Shown here piece by piece: positions 1,812 through 13,835 of a stretch of 44,429 bases of DNA (the stretch's first letter is position 1; each line of letters starts with the position of its first letter). Source of the DNA: Candidatus Peregrinibacteria bacterium (GTDB lineage: Bacteria > Patescibacteriota > Gracilibacteria > CAIRYL01 > GCA-016699755). The position numbers were made by a program, and so were the translations under genes. Where the stretch lies: contig JANTGK010000007.1 of the NCBI GenBank assembly GCA_024762935.1, positions 1 to 44,429 of the forward strand, written 5' to 3'. The notes beneath the pieces were generated by a model, which searched no databases, was not told the DNA's origin, and saw only the letters and a list, made by a program, of their open reading frames with translations.

Positions 1812-2858
1812 TTACAGTCGGACAATCCCACCTCCAAAACAGTATCCATTTTTATAGAGTACTGTTGATTGACCAGAGGCAATCCCTCGGTCTGGTTTTG
1901 TGAGGGTAATTATTGTTTTTCCATTGGTGTACTCTAATGTTCCCGAATGAAACTTTTCTCCATGGCGAAGTTTTATTTTATATTCACCTGTTGGTGGCTT
2001 TTTTGGAATCCAATTACAATTTATTATCTCAAACGTATTTGTTCCAGAATCAATCGGTGCATTTTTGGAAACAAACACTTGGTTTGTTGCAGGGTTCTTG
2101 TCGACGACAAACCAGGGGCCACCAGAAAGTCCGAGTCCTTGTCGCTGTCCAATCGTGTGAAACCAAAATCCATTGTGTTTGCCGAGTATCTTTTGTGTTT
2201 CTTTTTCAATGATGTTTCCCTCTTTTTTTCCGAGGTGTTCTTCAAGAAAATCAGAAAATTTAAACTGACCTAAAAAGCATATTCCTTGACTATCCGGTCT
2301 TGATGCAGTGGGAAGATTATATTTTTTTGCCAGTGTTCGGACTTCTTTTTTGGGAAGATGACCGATAGGAAACATTGCTCGAGAGAGTTGTTTTTGATGG
2401 AGTCTGCTCAAAAAATATGTCTGATCTTTTATGGGGTCTGGTGCGGATTTCAAAAAAAATTCCCCATCTTTTTCTTCTATCTGTGCGTAATGACCAGTGG
2501 CCACTTTTTCAAATTCACGGGGAATCTTTTCATAAAAACTTCCAAATTTAATTTTTTCATTACACCAAATATCTGGATTGGGGGTAAATCCTTCTTGTAT
2601 TTCAGTAATGGTTTCTGCAACGACTTTATCCCAATATTCCCTCTGCAGAGAAATGACTCTGAAAGGCACATCAAGTTGTTTACATGTTTTTTCTACATAC
2701 TCGATATCTTGTTCCCAAGCACAATCACCAAGATGTTTTACTTCGTCTTCGAGCCATATCTTTAAGTAAAAGGCGGTAACATCATGACCTGCCTGCTTCA
2801 GAAGTGCGAGGGCAACCGAACTATCTACACCGCCAGAGACGAGAGCTGCTATTTTCAT
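1812..2858 (-). CDS. mnmA: tRNA-specific 2-thiouridylase MnmA
   Basis: The 348-residue protein fits the MnmA family, which adds sulfur to U34 of tRNA(Lys, Glu, Gln) using ATP and a persulfide carrier. The PP-loop SGGVDSS is at residues 8-14. The two catalytic cysteines are visible as C99 in 'NPDIWCNEKIKF' and C194 in 'DSQGICFLG', matching E. coli C102 and C199. The C-terminal beta-barrel with 'GQSTVLY' is also present. The start codon overlaps the stop of the upstream SufU-like gene as ATGA, so the two are translationally coupled. The gene is the last of a sufD-sufS-SufU-like-mnmA cluster, which points to SufS as sulfur donor (as YrvO serves MnmA in Bacillus). Length is normal for the family. 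Confidence 0.95.
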   Translation of the reverse strand: MKIAALVSGGVDSSVALALLKQAGHDVTAFYLKIWLEDEVKHLGDCAWEQDIEYVEKTCKQLDVPFRVISLQREYWDKVVAETITEIQEGFTPNPDIWCNEKIKFGSFYEKIPREFEKVATGHYAQIEEKDGEFFLKSAPDPIKDQTYFLSRLHQKQLSRAMFPIGHLPKKEVRTLAKKYNLPTASRPDSQGICFLGQFKFSDFLEEHLGKKEGNIIEKETQKILGKHNGFWFHTIGQRQGLGLSGGPWFVVDKNPATNQVFVSKNAPIDSGTNTFEIINCNWIPKKPPTGEYKIKLRHGEKFHSGTLEYTNGKTIITLTKPDRGIASGQSTVLYKNGYCFGGGIVRL

Positions 2859-3262
2859 TCTTCTTCCATAAGATCTCCAAAATCCAACAAAGGGATATTA
2901 TTCTTTGCTCGGTAGGCATTTCTCAGAGTGAGGAGTCCGAGGAGTGATGATTTTAATCGTCGAGGAGAGAGCTCTTCTACCTCAAGCATATTGAGAATAT
3001 CCTCTTTATGGATTGATTCAATTTTTTTTAAGTCTTCTCCTTCCATTTCTTCACTTAGCAGGCTCATAGCAGCAATCGTAACCAGTCTTCCTTCTGCCTC
3101 AAATCCGATTTCTTTAATGGTTCCATCATCTTCAAAAAGAAAATCGACCTCAATTTCTTCGCCACATGATATATTTTTTTCTTTATGGGAAAAATCGGGA
3201 GTCTCAAGTTTTCCCCAATTTACTGGATTTTTGCCGTATTCATATATCATCTCACCCTTCAT
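2855..3262 (-). CDS. SufU/IscU-like protein lacking two of three cysteine ligands
   Basis: The 135-residue protein aligns by eye with SufU/IscU/NifU-N scaffolds. 'YGKNPVNWGKLE' matches the N-terminal YxNPxNxG motif, 'ISCGEEIEV' the first cysteine motif (C33), and 'IGFEAEGRLVTIAAMS' the second. In the second motif the usual GC(A/S)IS cysteine is arginine (R59). In the third motif 'RRLKSSLLG' the RIKCA cysteine is serine (S105). The Asp following the first Cys-Gly is Glu. It therefore cannot bind zinc or a cluster in the normal way. It lies 32 bp after sufS and overlaps mnmA (ATGA), suggesting a role in sulfur relay or SufS activation, or loss of function with retained structure. Start could instead be Met5 (3250), which has AAGG five bases upstream. 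Confidence 0.75.
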   Translation of the reverse strand: MKGEMIYEYGKNPVNWGKLETPDFSHKEKNISCGEEIEVDFLFEDDGTIKEIGFEAEGRLVTIAAMSLLSEEMEGEDLKKIESIHKEDILNMLEVEELSPRRLKSSLLGLLTLRNAYRAKNNIPLLDFGDLMEEE

Positions 3263-3294: not shown

Positions 3295-4509
3295 TTATCT
3301 TTTTAATTCCTGTATTGCTTGTTTTAACATTTCAGCAAATTTCTCTCCCTCCTCTTTTGTGGTATATATTCCAAAACTTGCCCGAAGACTTGTCTTTATT
3401 CCGAGTCTGTTATGAAGTGGTTCTGCACAATGATGACCCCCGCGAATACAAATTCCATAATCACTGAGATAGTCTGCCATATCATAATTTTGTATCCCAT
3501 TATTCATAGTAAACGTAACAAGCCCGCATGCATTTTTATGAGAAATAACAGTGAGCTCAGAAATTTCAGAAAGAAGGGAATACGCCCTTTTTGATATTTT
3601 TTGATCATGGATTTCTACTGTTCTCATTCCTATTTCTTGGAGAAAATCTACCGCTACTCCAGCTCCAATAACTTCGGCGATAGGAGGCGTGCCCGCTTCA
3701 AATTTTTCTGGCACTTGATTTGGAGTAAAATTTTCATATGTTACTTCGCGAATCATTTCTCCTCCTCCCAAAAAAGGTGGCATTTTTTTTAGGAGTGAGA
3801 GTCGCCCGTATAAAACACCTACTCCACTGGGGCCGTACATCTTGTGTGATGAGAATGCAAAAAAATCACACCCGATTTCTTGTACATCTATGGGCATGTG
3901 TGCAACAGACTGACAGGCATCAACGAGGGAAAGCACACAGTGTTCTCGTGCAATGGTGCAGAGGTCTCGAATACTATTTTTTGTCCCAAGGACATTCGAA
4001 ACATGCGGAAAAGCAATGAGTTTTGTCGGGAGATCGAGAAGCTTCTCTATGTTTGAGAGGAGAAGTTCTTTTTCATCATCAAAATCAATATATTCTATTT
4101 TTAATTTCTTTCGTTTTGCCAACTGCAACCATGGCACCATATTTGCATGGTGTTCCATTCGAGTTAAAATAATTCGATCTCCTTCTTGAAAAAATCCTTC
4201 CCAGTCACCAAGGCTGTGTGCCACAAGGTTTATTGATTCGGTTGCATTTTTTGTGAAGATAATTTCTCTGGGTGAGCTTGCATGTATAAAATCTCCTATT
4301 TTTTTTCGTGCTTGTTCATATCGTTCCGTTGCTTGATCACCTAAAAAATGTGCCCCTCTATGGATATTTGAATATGTCGTTTTATAAAATGTATCAATGG
4401 CATCGAGTACTTTTTTGGGTTTTTGACTGCTTGCTGCTGTATCGAGATAAATAAGATTCTCCGTTTTTAGTATGGGGAATTGCTCTCTTATGATTTTATT
4501 ATCTCTCAT
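3295..4509 (-). CDS. sufS: Cysteine desulfurase SufS
   Basis: This group II cysteine desulfurase converts L-cysteine to alanine and transfers sulfur for Fe-S assembly and tRNA thiolation. With the start chosen here it is 404 residues, the normal SufS length. The PLP lysine is K223 in 'FSSHKMYGPSG', and the catalytic cysteine is C361 in 'IRGGHHCAEP'. 'MEHHANMVPW' and 'DACQSVAHMPIDV' are family hallmarks. An in-frame ATG 13 codons upstream exists (4548), but the ATG at 4509 overlaps the sufD stop as ATGA, which fits the coupling style of the cluster. It sits between sufD and the SufU-like gene. Confidence 0.95.
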   Translation of the reverse strand: MRDNKIIREQFPILKTENLIYLDTAASSQKPKKVLDAIDTFYKTTYSNIHRGAHFLGDQATERYEQARKKIGDFIHASSPREIIFTKNATESINLVAHSLGDWEGFFQEGDRIILTRMEHHANMVPWLQLAKRKKLKIEYIDFDDEKELLLSNIEKLLDLPTKLIAFPHVSNVLGTKNSIRDLCTIAREHCVLSLVDACQSVAHMPIDVQEIGCDFFAFSSHKMYGPSGVGVLYGRLSLLKKMPPFLGGGEMIREVTYENFTPNQVPEKFEAGTPPIAEVIGAGVAVDFLQEIGMRTVEIHDQKISKRAYSLLSEISELTVISHKNACGLVTFTMNNGIQNYDMADYLSDYGICIRGGHHCAEPLHNRLGIKTSLRASFGIYTTKEEGEKFAEMLKQAIQELKR

Positions 4510-5444
4510 CGGGTGTATAAAATATGGTGGGCCGCTTCGGTCATACATTTTTGTACTGCCTTTTCTGGAATCTGCGAAAGTATTTCTGTGAGAAATCCTT
4601 GCATGAGCAGCCGCTCTGCTGACTTTTTATCAATACCTCGAGTCTGTAAATAAAAATAATCATCATCACTGAGTCGGGCAAGTGAGCTACTATGGCTTGC
4701 AGAAACCTTATTATTTGCTACTGAGAGGAGGGGAATAGAATCGAGATGTGCCTTTGGCGAAAGGAGAAGTGCCTTTTGGTCGAGATGGTTTTTTGTATCT
4801 TTCCCCTGTATTGGTATGACAGGAGCTCCTTGTATGCGGCAGAATGCATCTTCAAAGAGCGTGGCACGTGTAAGAATATCACCAGATGTATTGTGATTAT
4901 TGGTTATATTTTCAATTTTTACATCAGATCTTCCACTTTTGAGCCCAATTTCTGCAAAAGAGATTTGAGAATACCCTCCTATTCCTGTGATTGCGTTTGA
5001 TATTTCTCCTGTAAATTTTCCTTCATTAATATGAAGGAGGGTAATATGTATTGAGGTGTTTTTTTTACTCTCGCTGAATATCTTTAGGTGTGCATTGGAT
5101 TCTTTTTCACTTTTTACAAGTAGAACAATATGGACTTTGGCATTTTCTTCTCCTTGGGCACGAATCACTACATCTGCACTATTAAAATTTTCCATCCGTA
5201 AAAACACCATTTGTCGGCAATTTTTTTCAAAGAGGAGCGTAACATCTGATGAAAAATCTGAATTCTTTTCAAAAAAACAGGTTCCAATATCTGAAAAACT
5301 GTTCGCAGAAAATTTTACTATTGTTGTGTTTTCTTCAGAAATGATTTCTTCTGTTCCATTTACATTTGGTTTCTGAAATGGAAGTTTTTTTTCTGAGGGA
5401 AGAACTGCTGATACTTTAAAGAGGGGGCATTTCATTTCTTCCAT
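4506..5444 (-). CDS. sufD: Fe-S cluster assembly protein SufD (SufB/D family)
   Basis: The protein belongs to the SufB/SufD beta-helix family and would pair with SufB and SufC in the SufBC2D scaffold. The family signature near the C-terminus is clear: 'SASHSSSLARLSDDDYFYLQTRGI', with the conserved histidine of SufD, followed by the helical 'AERLLMQGFLTEIL'. At about 312 residues it is shorter than SufD of E. coli (423), mostly at the N-terminus, as is usual for compact SufD copies. The frame opens nine codons earlier at a TTG (5471). I prefer ATG at 5444 (or 5435, which has a GGAAG-like site). It is the first gene of the sufD-sufS-SufU-like-mnmA cluster. Confidence 0.85.
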   Translation of the reverse strand: MEEMKCPLFKVSAVLPSEKKLPFQKPNVNGTEEIISEENTTIVKFSANSFSDIGTCFFEKNSDFSSDVTLLFEKNCRQMVFLRMENFNSADVVIRAQGEENAKVHIVLLVKSEKESNAHLKIFSESKKNTSIHITLLHINEGKFTGEISNAITGIGGYSQISFAEIGLKSGRSDVKIENITNNHNTSGDILTRATLFEDAFCRIQGAPVIPIQGKDTKNHLDQKALLLSPKAHLDSIPLLSVANNKVSASHSSSLARLSDDDYFYLQTRGIDKKSAERLLMQGFLTEILSQIPEKAVQKCMTEAAHHILYTR

Positions 5445-5568
5445 TTTTTCATTTTTTTTCCCTGAAGGCAAGAGACATAAGCAGGTACAGAAGAGCGAAT
5501 ATTACAGATGAAAGAATGTAAAATCTGTGGTTTTTTACTCTTTATTCCAGAGGTCTTATCGCCAAACG

Positions 5569-6951
5569 TTATATTTTCTTTTTTGCATTATTGAGTGCTG
5601 ATCGGATAGCTTCTTCAACTGTTGGATGATAAAAGGGCATTTCTAAAAGCTGATCAAGCGTTGCATGAAACCCTATCGCCCATGAAAGAAGATGAGCAAT
5701 ATGTTCTGTTTTTGGTCCAATCATTTCTGCTCCCAGGAGTTTTTTTGATTTTTTATCGATATAGAGATTCATTTTTCCACGGTTTTTGTTGAGCATTTGA
5801 CTCCGTTTATCAAAGCTAAAGTCTACACTCCCAACAACAAAACTCTCTTTTGGAAGTTCTCGATACAATTTCCCCACAACGGCCATTTCTGGTTCAGTAA
5901 AGACAATTCCAATCGGAACTCGTCGGCTTCCTTTTGATACTTTTGGAAAGAGCGCAGCATTTTTACCAGCAATGGTTCCTTCATCAACCGCTTCGTGAAG
6001 GAGTGACTTTTCTCCATTGGCATCTCCAGCAATAAAAATATTACTTTTTCCGCATTGCATTGATTCGGGGTCGTACACTGGCATCCCTCGTGAATCAAGA
6101 TCGAGACTTGTTTTGTTGAGGTCTAGTTTTTTTACATTGGGGATGCGTCCGATTGCAGAGAGAACATAGTCAAAATTTTGCTCCAATTCATTGCCATACA
6201 TACTTGTAAATCGGATATGAACTTTTTTCCTTTCGGGAACCATTTCTTGTATTTCTGCGCCAGGAAAAATATCAATTTCTCCATGATATAAATGGTTTGC
6301 TGCCTCTTGAATATCTGGGTCAGAAAACGATCCGACATTTCCACTTCGACCAAAAATAGTCACACGAACACCAAGTCTTTCGAGTGCTTGTCCAAGTTCC
6401 ATTCCAATGACACCTGTTCCAAATATTGCTACAGACTGAGGAAGTTTTTTCCATTCAAAAACATCTTCATTGGTAATGCCGAGGGTACCCAGCTCAGAGA
6501 AATTTGGCAGGAGCCTTGGAGTTGATCCGGTAGCGATAATAATGGTTTTGGCAGTTACTTTTCTATCTTTTCCAATCTGGAGAGTATTATTATCGAGAAA
6601 CTTTGCAAAGCCCTGAATCTTATGTGTTTTGGGGATATTTTCAATATGATTTGTAATTTTCGATACAAATTGATCTCGGAGAGACCGAACTCTTTCCATT
6701 ACTTTTTGATCATCTATTTCTGTTTTATGCGTTGATATTCCAAAGGAATATGCATCTCGAATCGCTTTTGCTGCATTCCCTCCACTAATAAGAAGTTTAC
6801 TCGGCATGCACCCGTTGCGGGCACAGCTTGTACCATATTCTCCACCCTCGATAACAACAATATTTTTGGTGTGTTTTATCGCTGCCTTGTAGGCACTGAT
6901 TCCAGCCGAACCATGACCAATAATGGCTACATCTACTTTTTTTGTTTTCAT
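5569..6951 (-). CDS. Lpd/mercuric-reductase-like pyridine nucleotide-disulfide oxidoreductase
   Basis: The protein is an FAD and NAD(P)H-dependent class I disulfide oxidoreductase of about 460 residues. It has an N-terminal FAD dinucleotide fold ('VAIIGHGSAGIS'), a redox-active disulfide CARNGC (Cys 43 and 48 counting from this start), a second nucleotide fold ('SVAIFGTGVIGMELGQAL'), the FAD motif 'NIFIAGDANG', and a C-terminal interface domain with the catalytic 'HPTVEEAIRSAL'. The substrate is not determinable: no 2-oxo acid dehydrogenase E1/E2 genes are nearby, so a thiol or quinone reductase role is possible. Its location next to sufD may mean it supplies reducing power, but that is inference. 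Another ATG at 6969 gives six more residues. A TATACT box at 6979-6974 is so close to 6969 that the 6951 start seems likelier. Confidence 0.85.
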   Translation of the reverse strand: MKTKKVDVAIIGHGSAGISAYKAAIKHTKNIVVIEGGEYGTSCARNGCMPSKLLISGGNAAKAIRDAYSFGISTHKTEIDDQKVMERVRSLRDQFVSKITNHIENIPKTHKIQGFAKFLDNNTLQIGKDRKVTAKTIIIATGSTPRLLPNFSELGTLGITNEDVFEWKKLPQSVAIFGTGVIGMELGQALERLGVRVTIFGRSGNVGSFSDPDIQEAANHLYHGEIDIFPGAEIQEMVPERKKVHIRFTSMYGNELEQNFDYVLSAIGRIPNVKKLDLNKTSLDLDSRGMPVYDPESMQCGKSNIFIAGDANGEKSLLHEAVDEGTIAGKNAALFPKVSKGSRRVPIGIVFTEPEMAVVGKLYRELPKESFVVGSVDFSFDKRSQMLNKNRGKMNLYIDKKSKKLLGAEMIGPKTEHIAHLLSWAIGFHATLDQLLEMPFYHPTVEEAIRSALNNAKKKI

Positions 6952-7022
6952 ATTTTTGTATATGTTCATGAGAGTATAGCAGAATCATGTTTTTTTAAAA
7001 ACCCAATAAATCTCATTTCTTA

Positions 7023-7096: not shown

Positions 7097-9112
7097 TTAC
7101 TCAAATGTTACGAGAAGAACTCCGTCTTGGAAGTCAGCTGAACTTGAGGCTGGATTTCCTGTTCCGAGTTCAAAAAGGTAGATAATATCACGAGGGCCAA
7201 TGGTCACTATTCCTTCTTCATTGATGTAACCTTCCAAAAATTCATCAATACTTGGTTGTTGATTGTACGGTGTTAAATCAGGAACGGAATCTCCATTTTT
7301 GAGGGCTATAATCATTGGAGAATCTTCTTCTGTTGTCTGATGTTGTATAACCCAATCAGGCCAGTATGGGTTATATGATGTTCCCATAAAATCAATAGCT
7401 GTTCCTTCGATAATGTTGTTGATTACAAGAGGGTCAGAACTGGCTACTTGTGGCTCAGTTCCCTGAAAGATTGTGTGTATTTCGTTATTTATTTTTGTTT
7501 CTAGTTTAACGGGAATATTTGGTCCTCCTGATCCATATGTAATAGATATACCAAGTGTACGAACAGTCATATCTACGGTTTCGAGAGGAGTTATACTATT
7601 GTCATCATTAATATTGACCGGCAGATCATCGTCATCACCACCACCTTCTGCTCCATTTCCACCTTCTCCTTCGAGGACGGTTCCCTGGATTTGGACAATA
7701 ACAGGATTTTTTTCCTCGATATTATTTAAAATTCCAATGACACCTGTTTTTAACCCTGGGTCATCAGCAATAAATGAGACATCAAAGGTACATTCTCCTC
7801 GAACATCAACGGACTGGTTCTCACAGGTATTATTTGTGATTTCAAAGTCAGTTTCATTCACAAGAACAAAAGAATTTATTTCAAGATCAAGAAAGCCAGT
7901 ATTTGTTACTGTAAAAGTATTTGTAAGGGTATCTTCTTCAGCTTTTGTCCCAAAATCATAGTTGGTGCTACTAACAATAATATCTGGTGTCGGTGTTGGA
8001 CTAATAACCTCTAATACTCCTGGAAAATATGATGATGTGGCATAAATGAGACCACCTGAATAAAAGAGTGCATTCGGATATGCAAGATTGACTCCTGCTG
8101 CCCCATCGCTTAAGTGTGCAACATGTTCTGGATGAAGAGGGTCTGATACATTCATTATTTCGAGTGCTTTTGACCTGTATGATGAAATAAATGCCAGATC
8201 TCCCTCAATGATAATCGCATTCGGATCATTGAGCATTGCACCATTTTGTCCATCTCCAACACTAGCAACAATTGTTGGATTTTCTTTATCAGATATATCT
8301 ATTATTTGAAGAGCAAGTTTACTGCGTGCGGTGACAAATGCATATGTTCCATGAATAGCAACAGACCGGGCTTGTCTGAGGAAAATAGGATGAGCGATAC
8401 CCCCGACATGCACTGGATTTTCTGGATCAGAAATGTCAATAATCTCAAGAGCATTTGACCATTGAGATGCGATGTATACATAGTTATTTTCTATGAGAAT
8501 ATCAGAGGCTCCGTCGAGAAGGGCTCCATTTTGCCCATTAACCACCGCTGAGACATGTTGGGGATTGAGAGGGTTTGAAATATCAATAATTTCAAGAGCA
8601 TCTGAAGTGTATGATGCAACATATGCATAGTTTTCTTTTATGTTAATAGAAATTGGTGCATTCAGTTCTGCACCTCCATCGCCATCTGAAAGAGATGCAA
8701 CATGTGTTGGGTTTGATTTGTTTGAGACATCTATTATTTCAATGGCATCAGAATTTTTCGATGCGACATATGCATAATCATCCTTGACGACAACAGACCA
8801 GGCTCCATCAAGCTTTGCTCCTCCGTCTCCATTGGTGATTGATCCAACAGGAGTCGGAAAAAGAGGATCAGTAATGTCGATAATTTCAAGAGCATCTGAT
8901 GTTCGTGCCGTGACGTAGGCATAGCCTTCGTTTACAAATACATCTTGTGCACCACTAAGGTGGGCACCATTTTGTCCATCAGAAACAGAGCCAAGATGAA
9001 TTGGATTGAGATCTTCTGTGTTGAGAGTAGCAAATGATTGTGGCAGGAAGAAAAAAGCTGCCGAAAAAACCACTGAGCCGAAAGTGCTCATAGGGAGTAT
9101 GGTATTTTTCAT
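7097..9112 (-). CDS. Secreted LVIVD-repeat beta-propeller protein with ASH-like domain
   Basis: This 671-residue protein starts with a signal peptide (residues 1-28, ending 'PQSFA'). It is followed by seven repeats of about 45-50 residues, each with 'SDGxxGAxLxxA', 'xYAYVAS' and 'ALEIIDISDPxNP', which are LVIVD repeats and imply a seven-bladed beta-propeller (about residues 38-385). Next comes an Ig-like ASH/HYDIN-type domain ('YDFGTKAEEDTLTNTFTVTN', about 390-500) with two cysteines. Then follow a Gly/Asp-rich linker and a C-terminal region of unknown fold (about 520-671). No transmembrane anchor or sortase motif is seen at the end. It is probably a secreted or surface-bound protein for binding. 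It has its own palindrome-embedded promoter and a strong terminator, so it is monocistronic. Confidence 0.85.
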   Translation of the reverse strand: MKNTILPMSTFGSVVFSAAFFFLPQSFATLNTEDLNPIHLGSVSDGQNGAHLSGAQDVFVNEGYAYVTARTSDALEIIDITDPLFPTPVGSITNGDGGAKLDGAWSVVVKDDYAYVASKNSDAIEIIDVSNKSNPTHVASLSDGDGGAELNAPISINIKENYAYVASYTSDALEIIDISNPLNPQHVSAVVNGQNGALLDGASDILIENNYVYIASQWSNALEIIDISDPENPVHVGGIAHPIFLRQARSVAIHGTYAFVTARSKLALQIIDISDKENPTIVASVGDGQNGAMLNDPNAIIIEGDLAFISSYRSKALEIMNVSDPLHPEHVAHLSDGAAGVNLAYPNALFYSGGLIYATSSYFPGVLEVISPTPTPDIIVSSTNYDFGTKAEEDTLTNTFTVTNTGFLDLEINSFVLVNETDFEITNNTCENQSVDVRGECTFDVSFIADDPGLKTGVIGILNNIEEKNPVIVQIQGTVLEGEGGNGAEGGGDDDDLPVNINDDNSITPLETVDMTVRTLGISITYGSGGPNIPVKLETKINNEIHTIFQGTEPQVASSDPLVINNIIEGTAIDFMGTSYNPYWPDWVIQHQTTEEDSPMIIALKNGDSVPDLTPYNQQPSIDEFLEGYINEEGIVTIGPRDIIYLFELGTGNPASSSADFQDGVLLVTFE

Positions 9113-9299: not shown

Positions 9300-10721
9300 T
9301 TATCCGACACTTCCTTCCATTTCGATTTCTATGAGACGATTCATTTCAACAGCATATTCCATTGGGAGTTCACGGGTAATGGGGTCTAAAAAACCATTCA
9401 CAAGAATAGACTGAGCTTGTTCTTGTGATATTCCTCTCGATTGAAGGTAAAAAAGATCATCAGGAGAGAGTCGCCCAACGCTTGCTTCGTGTGAAACAAA
9501 GGCAGAATCATCAGCAATATCTATATCAGGAACAGTATTATTTATCGAACCCTCGTCAAGAAGGAGTCCATCACATTCTGTATGAATACGACAATTTTTT
9601 GCACCATTTGCGACACGTACAATTCCCCGATATGTTGAAATGCCACCAGCCTTACTGAGACTTTTTGATACGACTTTACAGCTCGTATTGCTTCCAATAT
9701 GAAAAACTTTTGCCCCAGTGTCTTGATTTTGATCCTTATTGGCAAAAGCTATTCCAAGGTGGTCAGCACTGCTGCCTTCACCTTTTAAAATACTACATGG
9801 GTAAAGCATGGTTACTCCTGATCCCATATTTCCTCCGACCCATTCCATACGAGCATTTTTCTCAACAATAGCCCGTTTTGTGTTGAGATTGTAGGTGTCT
9901 TTTGACCAGTTCTCAACAGATGAGTATCGGAATTGGCTGTCCTTTCCAACAAATACTTCTACACAACCAGCATGGAGAGCATTTGTTCCGTATTTTGGCG
10001 CACTACACCCCTCAATATAGTGTCCTTTTGAGTTGTCCTCAATAATGAGCAGAGTATGTTCAAATTGACCCATCCCAGGAGCATTCATTCGGAAGTATGC
10101 CTGGAGCGGTTCATCGACTTCGACTCCTTTTGGAATCCATAAAAATGTCCCACCACTCCATACGGCTGCATGAAGGGCAGCAAATTTATGATCATGAATT
10201 GGGACGCATTTCATAAAATGTTTTCTGACGAGATCTGGATATTTTTGTACTGCTTCATCCATATCGAGAAATATCACTCCTTTGTCTTCCCAGTGCTGCT
10301 TTAATGAGTGGTAAACCGTGTCGCTTTCATATTGTGCTCCTGCTCCGGCAAGCATTTGTCTTTCCGCTTCTGGTATGCCGAGTTTTTCAAAAGTATTTTT
10401 AATATCTTCTGGGACTTCATCCCATTTTTTTGCATTTTTTGTATCTGCTGCACGAGCATAAAAACAAATCTCATGAAAAATGAGGGCAGAAAGATTTGGG
10501 CCCCACTTTGGCATGGGCATCTCTTGGAAGGTTTTAAATCCTTTGAGTCGGATATCGAGCATCCATTCGGGTTCATTTTTTTCTGATGATATTTGTCTGA
10601 TAAGGTCTTCTGAAAGCCCACGGGAGAATTTTTTCAGATATTCCGATGAGTTTGCTGTATCAAACGTCTCACGAGAGAGATCTGCAAATATTCCTTCTTT
10701 CGTTTTTGACTCTTCGCTCAT
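9300..10721 (-). CDS. sufB: Fe-S cluster assembly protein SufB
   Basis: The 473-residue protein matches full-length SufB, the scaffold subunit of the SufBC2D complex. Hallmarks are the N-terminal 'GLSEDLIRQIS...EPEWMLDIRLKGF', the beta-helix core ('ALHAAVWSGGTFLWIPKGV', 'HYIEGCSAPKYG', 'LHAGCVEVFV'), the proposed cluster-site region 'IHTECDGLLLDE' with a conserved cysteine, 'FVSHEASVGRLS' with the conserved His-Glu, and the C-terminal 'DDLFYLQSRGIS'. It is transcribed from its own promoter, divergent from the gene at 10820. It is separated from both sufC and sufD, unlike the usual sufBCDS operon. Heptamer array A follows directly. Confidence 0.97.
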   Translation of the reverse strand: MSEESKTKEGIFADLSRETFDTANSSEYLKKFSRGLSEDLIRQISSEKNEPEWMLDIRLKGFKTFQEMPMPKWGPNLSALIFHEICFYARAADTKNAKKWDEVPEDIKNTFEKLGIPEAERQMLAGAGAQYESDTVYHSLKQHWEDKGVIFLDMDEAVQKYPDLVRKHFMKCVPIHDHKFAALHAAVWSGGTFLWIPKGVEVDEPLQAYFRMNAPGMGQFEHTLLIIEDNSKGHYIEGCSAPKYGTNALHAGCVEVFVGKDSQFRYSSVENWSKDTYNLNTKRAIVEKNARMEWVGGNMGSGVTMLYPCSILKGEGSSADHLGIAFANKDQNQDTGAKVFHIGSNTSCKVVSKSLSKAGGISTYRGIVRVANGAKNCRIHTECDGLLLDEGSINNTVPDIDIADDSAFVSHEASVGRLSPDDLFYLQSRGISQEQAQSILVNGFLDPITRELPMEYAVEMNRLIEIEMEGSVG

Positions 10722-13061: not shown

Positions 13062-13835
13062 TTATGAACTGTACCCTTTTTCTTCGATTTCTTGTGCAAG
13101 AGTAAAGTCTCCAGTTTTTTGAATTTTTCCTTCTGAAAAAAGGTGCACTTTATCGGGAGTGATATATTCAAGAATTCTTGGATAGTGTGTAATAAGAATG
13201 ACTCCCATATTTGTTTCATTTTTAAGGGCGTTCACCCTTTCACATACAACCTTTAGGGCATCAACATCGAGGCCGGAATCGAGTTCATCGAGAAAGACAA
13301 ATTTTGGTTGTAAAAGTTCCATTTGTAATATTTCCGACTTCTTCTTTTCACCTCCAGAGAATCCTTCGTTTACATTGCGTTCAAGGAATTTCTTTGGGAG
13401 AGAAACATCGGGAATCTTCTCTTCTATTTTTTTTCGGAATTTTACGGGTGATATCTGTTTTCTGAGCATCTTGTCTTTTCGAGCTTCTTGCAATGATTTA
13501 TCTGCTTTATGAAGAATTTTACCCTGATGAATGGTCTGGAGAAAATGCCGAAAATTCACACCTGAAATTTCTCGCGGTTGTTGAAAGACTAAAAAAAGTC
13601 CTTGCTGTACTCGCTCTTCTGGGGTTTCACTCAAGATGTTTTTTCCTTCTAGTTCTATTTTTCCCTCCGTTACTTGATAGCTCGGGTGCCCAGCAATCAC
13701 CTTTGCGAGTGTCGATTTTCCTGATCCATTTGGCCCCATAATGGCATGGACTTCACCGGGTTGTACTTCAAGCGTAACTCCTTTGAGAATTTCTGTATCT
13801 TCAAAATTTGCGTGGAGGTTTTTAATAGTGAGCAT
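13062..13835 (-). CDS. sufC: Fe-S cluster assembly ATPase SufC
   Basis: The 257-residue ABC-type ATPase energises the SufBCD scaffold. Walker A is 'GPNGSGKST', followed by the Q-loop 'VFQQPREISGVN', the signature 'FSGGEKKKSEILQ' (SufC-type), Walker B 'FVFLDELDSGLDVDAL', and the switch histidine in 'ILITHYPRILEYI'. Its start codon overlaps the gatB stop (TAATG), so it is translated after gatB rather than with sufB and sufD. Length is normal for the family. Confidence 0.97.
   Translation of the reverse strand: MLTIKNLHANFEDTEILKGVTLEVQPGEVHAIMGPNGSGKSTLAKVIAGHPSYQVTEGKIELEGKNILSETPEERVQQGLFLVFQQPREISGVNFRHFLQTIHQGKILHKADKSLQEARKDKMLRKQISPVKFRKKIEEKIPDVSLPKKFLERNVNEGFSGGEKKKSEILQMELLQPKFVFLDELDSGLDVDALKVVCERVNALKNETNMGVILITHYPRILEYITPDKVHLFSEGKIQKTGDFTLAQEIEEKGYSS

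Follow-up and report, generated by a model that had tools for sequence, protein, structure and literature searches.

The stretch of DNA analysed here (the window) comprises 44,429 nucleotides of contig JANTGK010000007.1 from a Candidatus Peregrinibacteria bacterium (assembly GCA_024762935.1), and carries suf genes together with mnmA on the reverse strand (Table 1). One of these, sufU, encodes a SufU-family protein that has lost the second and third of its zinc-ligand cysteines. It begins 32 bases downstream of sufS, and its stop codon overlaps the mnmA start by four bases (ATGA). A first-pass annotation made from the letters alone had already placed it between the two genes and in overlap with mnmA, which is correct; its description of MnmA as a thiolase is not, the enzyme being a tRNA 2-thiouridylase. 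The SUF set of the window genome is otherwise complete (SufS, SufD-like, SufB, and SufC), and the window SufB has kept the two cysteines that correspond in alignment to C254 and C405 of E. coli SufB. SufS is the only Aminotran_5 protein found in this genome, and the sole cysteine desulfurase detected. Two further genes on the same strand, encoding a choice-of-anchor repeat protein and a dihydrolipoyl dehydrogenase-like protein, lie between sufB and sufD.

Table 1. Genes and key codons of the SUF locus (positions within the window).
Feature	Positions	Strand	Basis or remark
mnmA (tRNA 2-thiouridine synthase)	1812..2858	-	TIGR00420, 397 bits
sufU (SufU family, without second and third zinc-ligand Cys)	2855..3262	-	135 aa, ATG start; Pfam, AlphaFold2, Foldseek
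SufU S105 codon (TCA)	2948..2950	-	replaces zinc-ligand Cys3 (B. subtilis C128)
SufU R102 codon (CGA)	2957..2959	-	aligns with conserved SufU interface Arg (M. tuberculosis R128; PMC10216065, PMC11408855)
SufU R59 codon (AGA)	3086..3088	-	replaces zinc-ligand Cys2 (B. subtilis C66)
SufU E35 codon (GAA)	3158..3160	-	replaces Asp zinc ligand
SufU C33 codon (TGT)	3164..3166	-	equivalent to persulfide acceptor, B. subtilis SufU C41 / M. tuberculosis C40
sufS (type II cysteine desulfurase, 417 aa)	3295..4548	-	TIGR01979, 492 bits
SufS C374 codon, catalytic Cys	3427..3429	-	alignment to 5j8q/5xt5
SufS Y355 codon	3484..3486	-	aligns with B. subtilis H342 and E. coli SufS Y345 (5j8q/5xt5 alignment)
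sufD-like	4506..5471	-	PF01458, 106 bits
dihydrolipoyl dehydrogenase-like gene	5569..6969	-	
choice-of-anchor repeat protein gene	7097..9112	-	
sufB	9300..10721	-	TIGR01980, 671 bits
sufC	13062..13835	-	TIGR01978, 314 bits

The window SufU contains a NifU_N domain (PF01592, 47.7 bits, the cut-off being 22), and scores 52.6 bits on the NCBIfam SufU equivalog model TIGR01994, below the curated cut-off of 92.5. Its AlphaFold2 model, built from a 58-row alignment, has a mean pLDDT of 96.8, and the solved structures ranked first by Foldseek are IscU/SufU proteins, with E-values down to 1e-10; the predicted fold is confidently that of IscU/SufU. SufE (PF02657) has no match in the window genome, the sufU locus included, and searching the window SufU against named genomes gave no confirmed relative.

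What remains of the metal site? The zinc-ligand set Cys-Asp-Cys-Cys reads C33, E35, R59, and S105 here, and the IscU scaffold signature, three cysteines plus a ligand His preceding Cys3, is broken at R59, K104, and S105. C33 itself occupies the position whose role as persulfide acceptor is established in B. subtilis and M. tuberculosis (PMC10216065). The codons bear out the three replacements listed by the first-pass annotation, as well as its view that a three-cysteine cluster site is impossible, and with Cys2 and Cys3 gone the same is true of the zinc site. Turning the R59 or the S105 codon into one for Cys would take two base changes in either case, which rules out a single sequencing error as the explanation of either.

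A survey of the class covered 353 genomes, 299 of which gave a SufU/IscU-type match; about 7 kb around 120 of these loci were extracted and then aligned. Sixty SufU proteins are altered, with both Cys2 and Cys3 absent in every one: that of the window (family f1), that of genome G029 (f17), and 58 from families f11, f15, f21, and f22. Most of these 58 come from genomes that use TGA within frames, which suggests that TGA is read as glycine (code 25) in part of the class. The nearest relative of the window SufU is the G029 protein, with 44% identity and the same CGE...GR...KS pattern. Position 35 is acidic in all 60 altered proteins (57 Asp, 3 Glu), and both C33 and R102 are invariant throughout the altered and intact SufU of the class (60 plus 44, hence 104/104). 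The 44 intact proteins all retain the three cysteines, as do 60/60 SufU/IscU loci sampled across the phylum outside the class. The glycine following Cys1 is also lost in 10 of the 60 altered proteins, and 13 of them, that of the window included, have a single cysteine in their whole length. In altered proteins of f11, f15, and f22, a new cysteine occurs at position 65 of the window protein, six residues past the lost Cys2, in 32 of the 60, and a cysteine at position 58, one residue off Cys2, in six; either is a possible second thiol. In three f11 genomes with altered SufU no full SufS was found (G053, G081, and G075; loci L066, L076, and L080), G053 and G075 having only fragments of a class V cysteine desulfurase and G081 no match; incomplete assembly or another sulfur source are both possible.

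Among close pairs of altered SufU, dN/dS is about 0.1, hence the altered family is under purifying selection. Because the changes are shared across 60 genomes that all keep C33 and R102 at such a low dN/dS, the altered state is old, common to relatives, and selected, rather than the outcome of recent loss or random decay. This answers the question that the first-pass annotation had raised for itself, namely whether the same replacements would recur in relatives or would turn out to be a recent loss amid random substitutions: G029 has the very same changes, and the loss of Cys2 and Cys3 extends to the 58 proteins of four other families. A decaying gene or an assembly error, to which the score below the NCBIfam SufU cut-off might have pointed, thus has a negligible probability, since the frame is open, the state is shared with G029 at only 44% identity, and the key sites are conserved.

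Could a metal nevertheless be held by other ligands, for instance C33, E35, and a replacement residue? The invariable acid at position 35 and the cysteines at positions 65 and 58 would accommodate such a variant zinc SufU. However, 13 altered proteins, including that of the window, have just one cysteine to offer, no His or Cys has newly become invariant across the 60, and SufS lacks the residue needed for swapping on the metal (see below), making this reading very improbable. Another alternative is that all sulfur chemistry has been lost, the protein now regulating SufS or serving it as a structural cofactor with no catalytic part; a SufS regulator was among the suggestions of the first-pass annotation. 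The disappearance of two or three zinc ligands, and in ten cases of the glycine past Cys1 as well, would be in line with this, but a pure regulator would have no need of an acceptor cysteine, and here C33, R102, and the acid at 35 are kept without exception; the proposal therefore fares badly and is to be considered improbable.

In the literature SufU counts as a zinc-dependent protein, and there has been argument over whether it serves as a scaffold or solely carries sulfur. In crystal structures of SufS-SufU complexes, a SufS histidine takes over a zinc coordination position, thereby freeing the acceptor cysteine of SufU (PMC10216065, PMC11408855). This zinc-swap histidine, H342 in B. subtilis SufS and H354 in M. 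tuberculosis, is essential with zinc SufU; at the same position E. coli SufS has a Tyr and CsdA a Ser (PMC10216065, PMC11408855). The position is His in 42/42 SufS partnering intact SufU within the class and in 40/40 SufS outside it, but in only 6 of the 55 SufS that partner altered SufU, where N, S, L, F, T, I, A, D, V, Q, Y, and others are found instead. Within the class, Fisher's test of His against SufU type gives p = 2e-21 with kinship ignored, a value to be read in the light of phylogenetically non-independent counts: the altered proteins represent one or two lineages, and what the comparison adds up to is one or two independent events of origin, together with the switch to SufE in family f26 described below. 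The SufS of G029 has an Ile at this position. Across the partners of intact SufU, 46 SufS columns reach a conservation of 95% or more; the window SufS departs at three of them (H340 to Q, H342 to Y, and one L to I), and two of these three face SufU, the interface being defined as in PMC10216065. The loss from SufS of precisely the histidine involved in zinc-ligand swapping suggests that the sulfur acceptor works without metal, in the manner of SufE; on the other side, six genomes with altered SufU retain the histidine. Two code-25 genomes, G152 (locus L208) and G164 (L209), have a second class V aminotransferase paralogue that does not adjoin sufU.

In SufS trees, families f1 and f17 pair with a support of 95-96, a clade with a support of 100 unites the code-25 families, and all altered lineages fall on one side of a branch with a weak support of 29. 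With the diagnostic columns taken out, a single altered clade is not rejected on the SufU tree (p-AU 0.8). Given that weak branch and this test, the altered SufU arose once or twice. Within the code-25 SufS clade, the H342 position has undergone at least 6 changes between His and not-His and at least 24 residue changes, a repeated turnover that fits an order of events in which the SufU zinc site was lost first and the SufS histidine drifted afterwards.

The class also provides its own points of comparison. In family f26 (G255 and G256), SufE is present, the class search listed no SufU match, and the H342 position of SufS is Ser or Tyr in these two members, an in-class switch of transpersulfurase type. 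Family f2, from the same order as the window (G002-G005, G007, and G008), has SufE instead of SufU, and where its desulfurase is seen beside SufE it is of IscS type. Another member of the window's own family, genome G001, encodes an IscS-type desulfurase together with an IscU-like protein in which every cysteine is present. The idea that the window SufS was gained by transfer together with a SufE that was later lost was discarded, the f2 desulfurase being IscS-type and the window SufS pairing with that of G029.

There remains the close association with mnmA, from which the first-pass annotation had derived a repurposed adaptor between SufS and MnmA. In its dedicated form, this adaptor would take sulfur from SufS for tRNA thiolation, with MnmA, and not SufB, as its sole or main recipient. 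The gene overlap, the finding of SufS as sole cysteine desulfurase, and the putative SufE-like domain carried by the MnmA of the malaria parasite (PMC10219651) all speak for it. Yet among the altered loci examined, mnmA lies within about 3.5 kb of sufU only in the window genome: it is missing from this neighbourhood in G029 and in the code-25 families, and the intact sufU-sufS-sufD sets of the class likewise lack it. In addition, SufS of the malaria parasite seems to feed MnmA without SufE (PMC10219651). An mnmA-specific link was rejected on the ground that the adjacency is not conserved among altered sufU loci, and the adaptor idea is accordingly unlikely; since among the altered loci examined the mnmA neighbourhood is peculiar to the window genome, an MnmA-specific role is not a general function of altered SufU. 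The IscU-type locus L157 also has mnmA nearby.

We are thus left with a member of the SufU lineage that has lost its zinc site and most probably now acts in a SufE-like manner. It is very probably still a partner of SufS. We infer that it holds no zinc, that C33 accepts sulfur, and that this sulfur is delivered to SufB and MnmA. In such a scheme, SufS would take sulfur from cysteine to form a persulfide on C374, and SufU would dock on the SufS helix bearing Q353-x-Y355-D356. The free C33 would then accept the sulfur without any zinc-ligand swap, before SufU passes it to a SufB cysteine of the SufBCD scaffold. Because it is the only cysteine desulfurase found in the genome, SufS, with or without SufU, probably supplies MnmA as well. 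Release in SufE depends on R119, an arginine that is matched by one in SufU (PMC11408855); in the SufU of this class, R102 is invariant. Since published zinc SufU fails with SufS lacking the zinc-swap histidine, a zinc-free SufU must have evolved another, putative mechanism for opening the loop. SufU zinc has been proposed to guard the acceptor cysteine against oxidation (PMC10216065), and, as a guess, hosts living without oxygen might do without it.

If so, SufS would have a further kind of partner besides zinc SufU, SufE, and CsdE: a SufU devoid of metal that has come by convergence to work in the SufE mode, its zinc site having been lost before the SufS histidine drifted. This interpretation is considered rather likely. 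No paper on a zinc-less SufU was found in the open-access literature, and nothing relevant on SufU in Gracilibacteria, Patescibacteria, or the candidate phyla radiation; most subscription papers fell outside this search. Sixty genomes that keep the acceptor cysteine without the canonical metal site, with the partner histidine lost, amount to a natural experiment, suggesting that sulfur transfer is the essential job and that zinc is dispensable. The altered SufU/SufS pairs also offer a direct test of the residues that make SufS SufU-like or SufE-like.

How does the pair compare with known systems? With zinc SufU (B. subtilis, M. tuberculosis, and S. aureus), the window protein shares its fold, sequence homology, acceptor cysteine, interface Arg, and a gene adjoining sufS in a SUF cluster. 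Unlike zinc SufU, it lacks two of the three cysteine ligands, its Asp ligand is a Glu, and the partner SufS is without the histidine. The likeness to SufE-SufS of E. coli lies in a single acceptor cysteine, no metal site, a SufS Tyr at the same position, and the proposed role, SufE being the transpersulfurase of a SUF operon. SufE nevertheless constitutes a separate family (PF02657), absent from the window genome by search, and the window SufU model matches IscU/SufU first; having a non-His SufS partner (Tyr355), as SufE does, is therefore a likeness in mode of action and not membership. CsdE-CsdA of E. coli similarly combines a metal-free acceptor with a desulfurase whose specificity position holds Ser rather than His, but belongs to another family and another pathway (cyclic t6A). 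Finally, the Plasmodium apicoplast resembles the window genome in that Fe-S clusters and MnmA both depend on a single SufS, SufE not being needed for the latter (PMC10219651); there, a putative SufE-type acceptor fold is physically joined to MnmA, whereas in the window the genes merely overlap and the acceptor is derived from SufU (PMC10219651 for Plasmodium).
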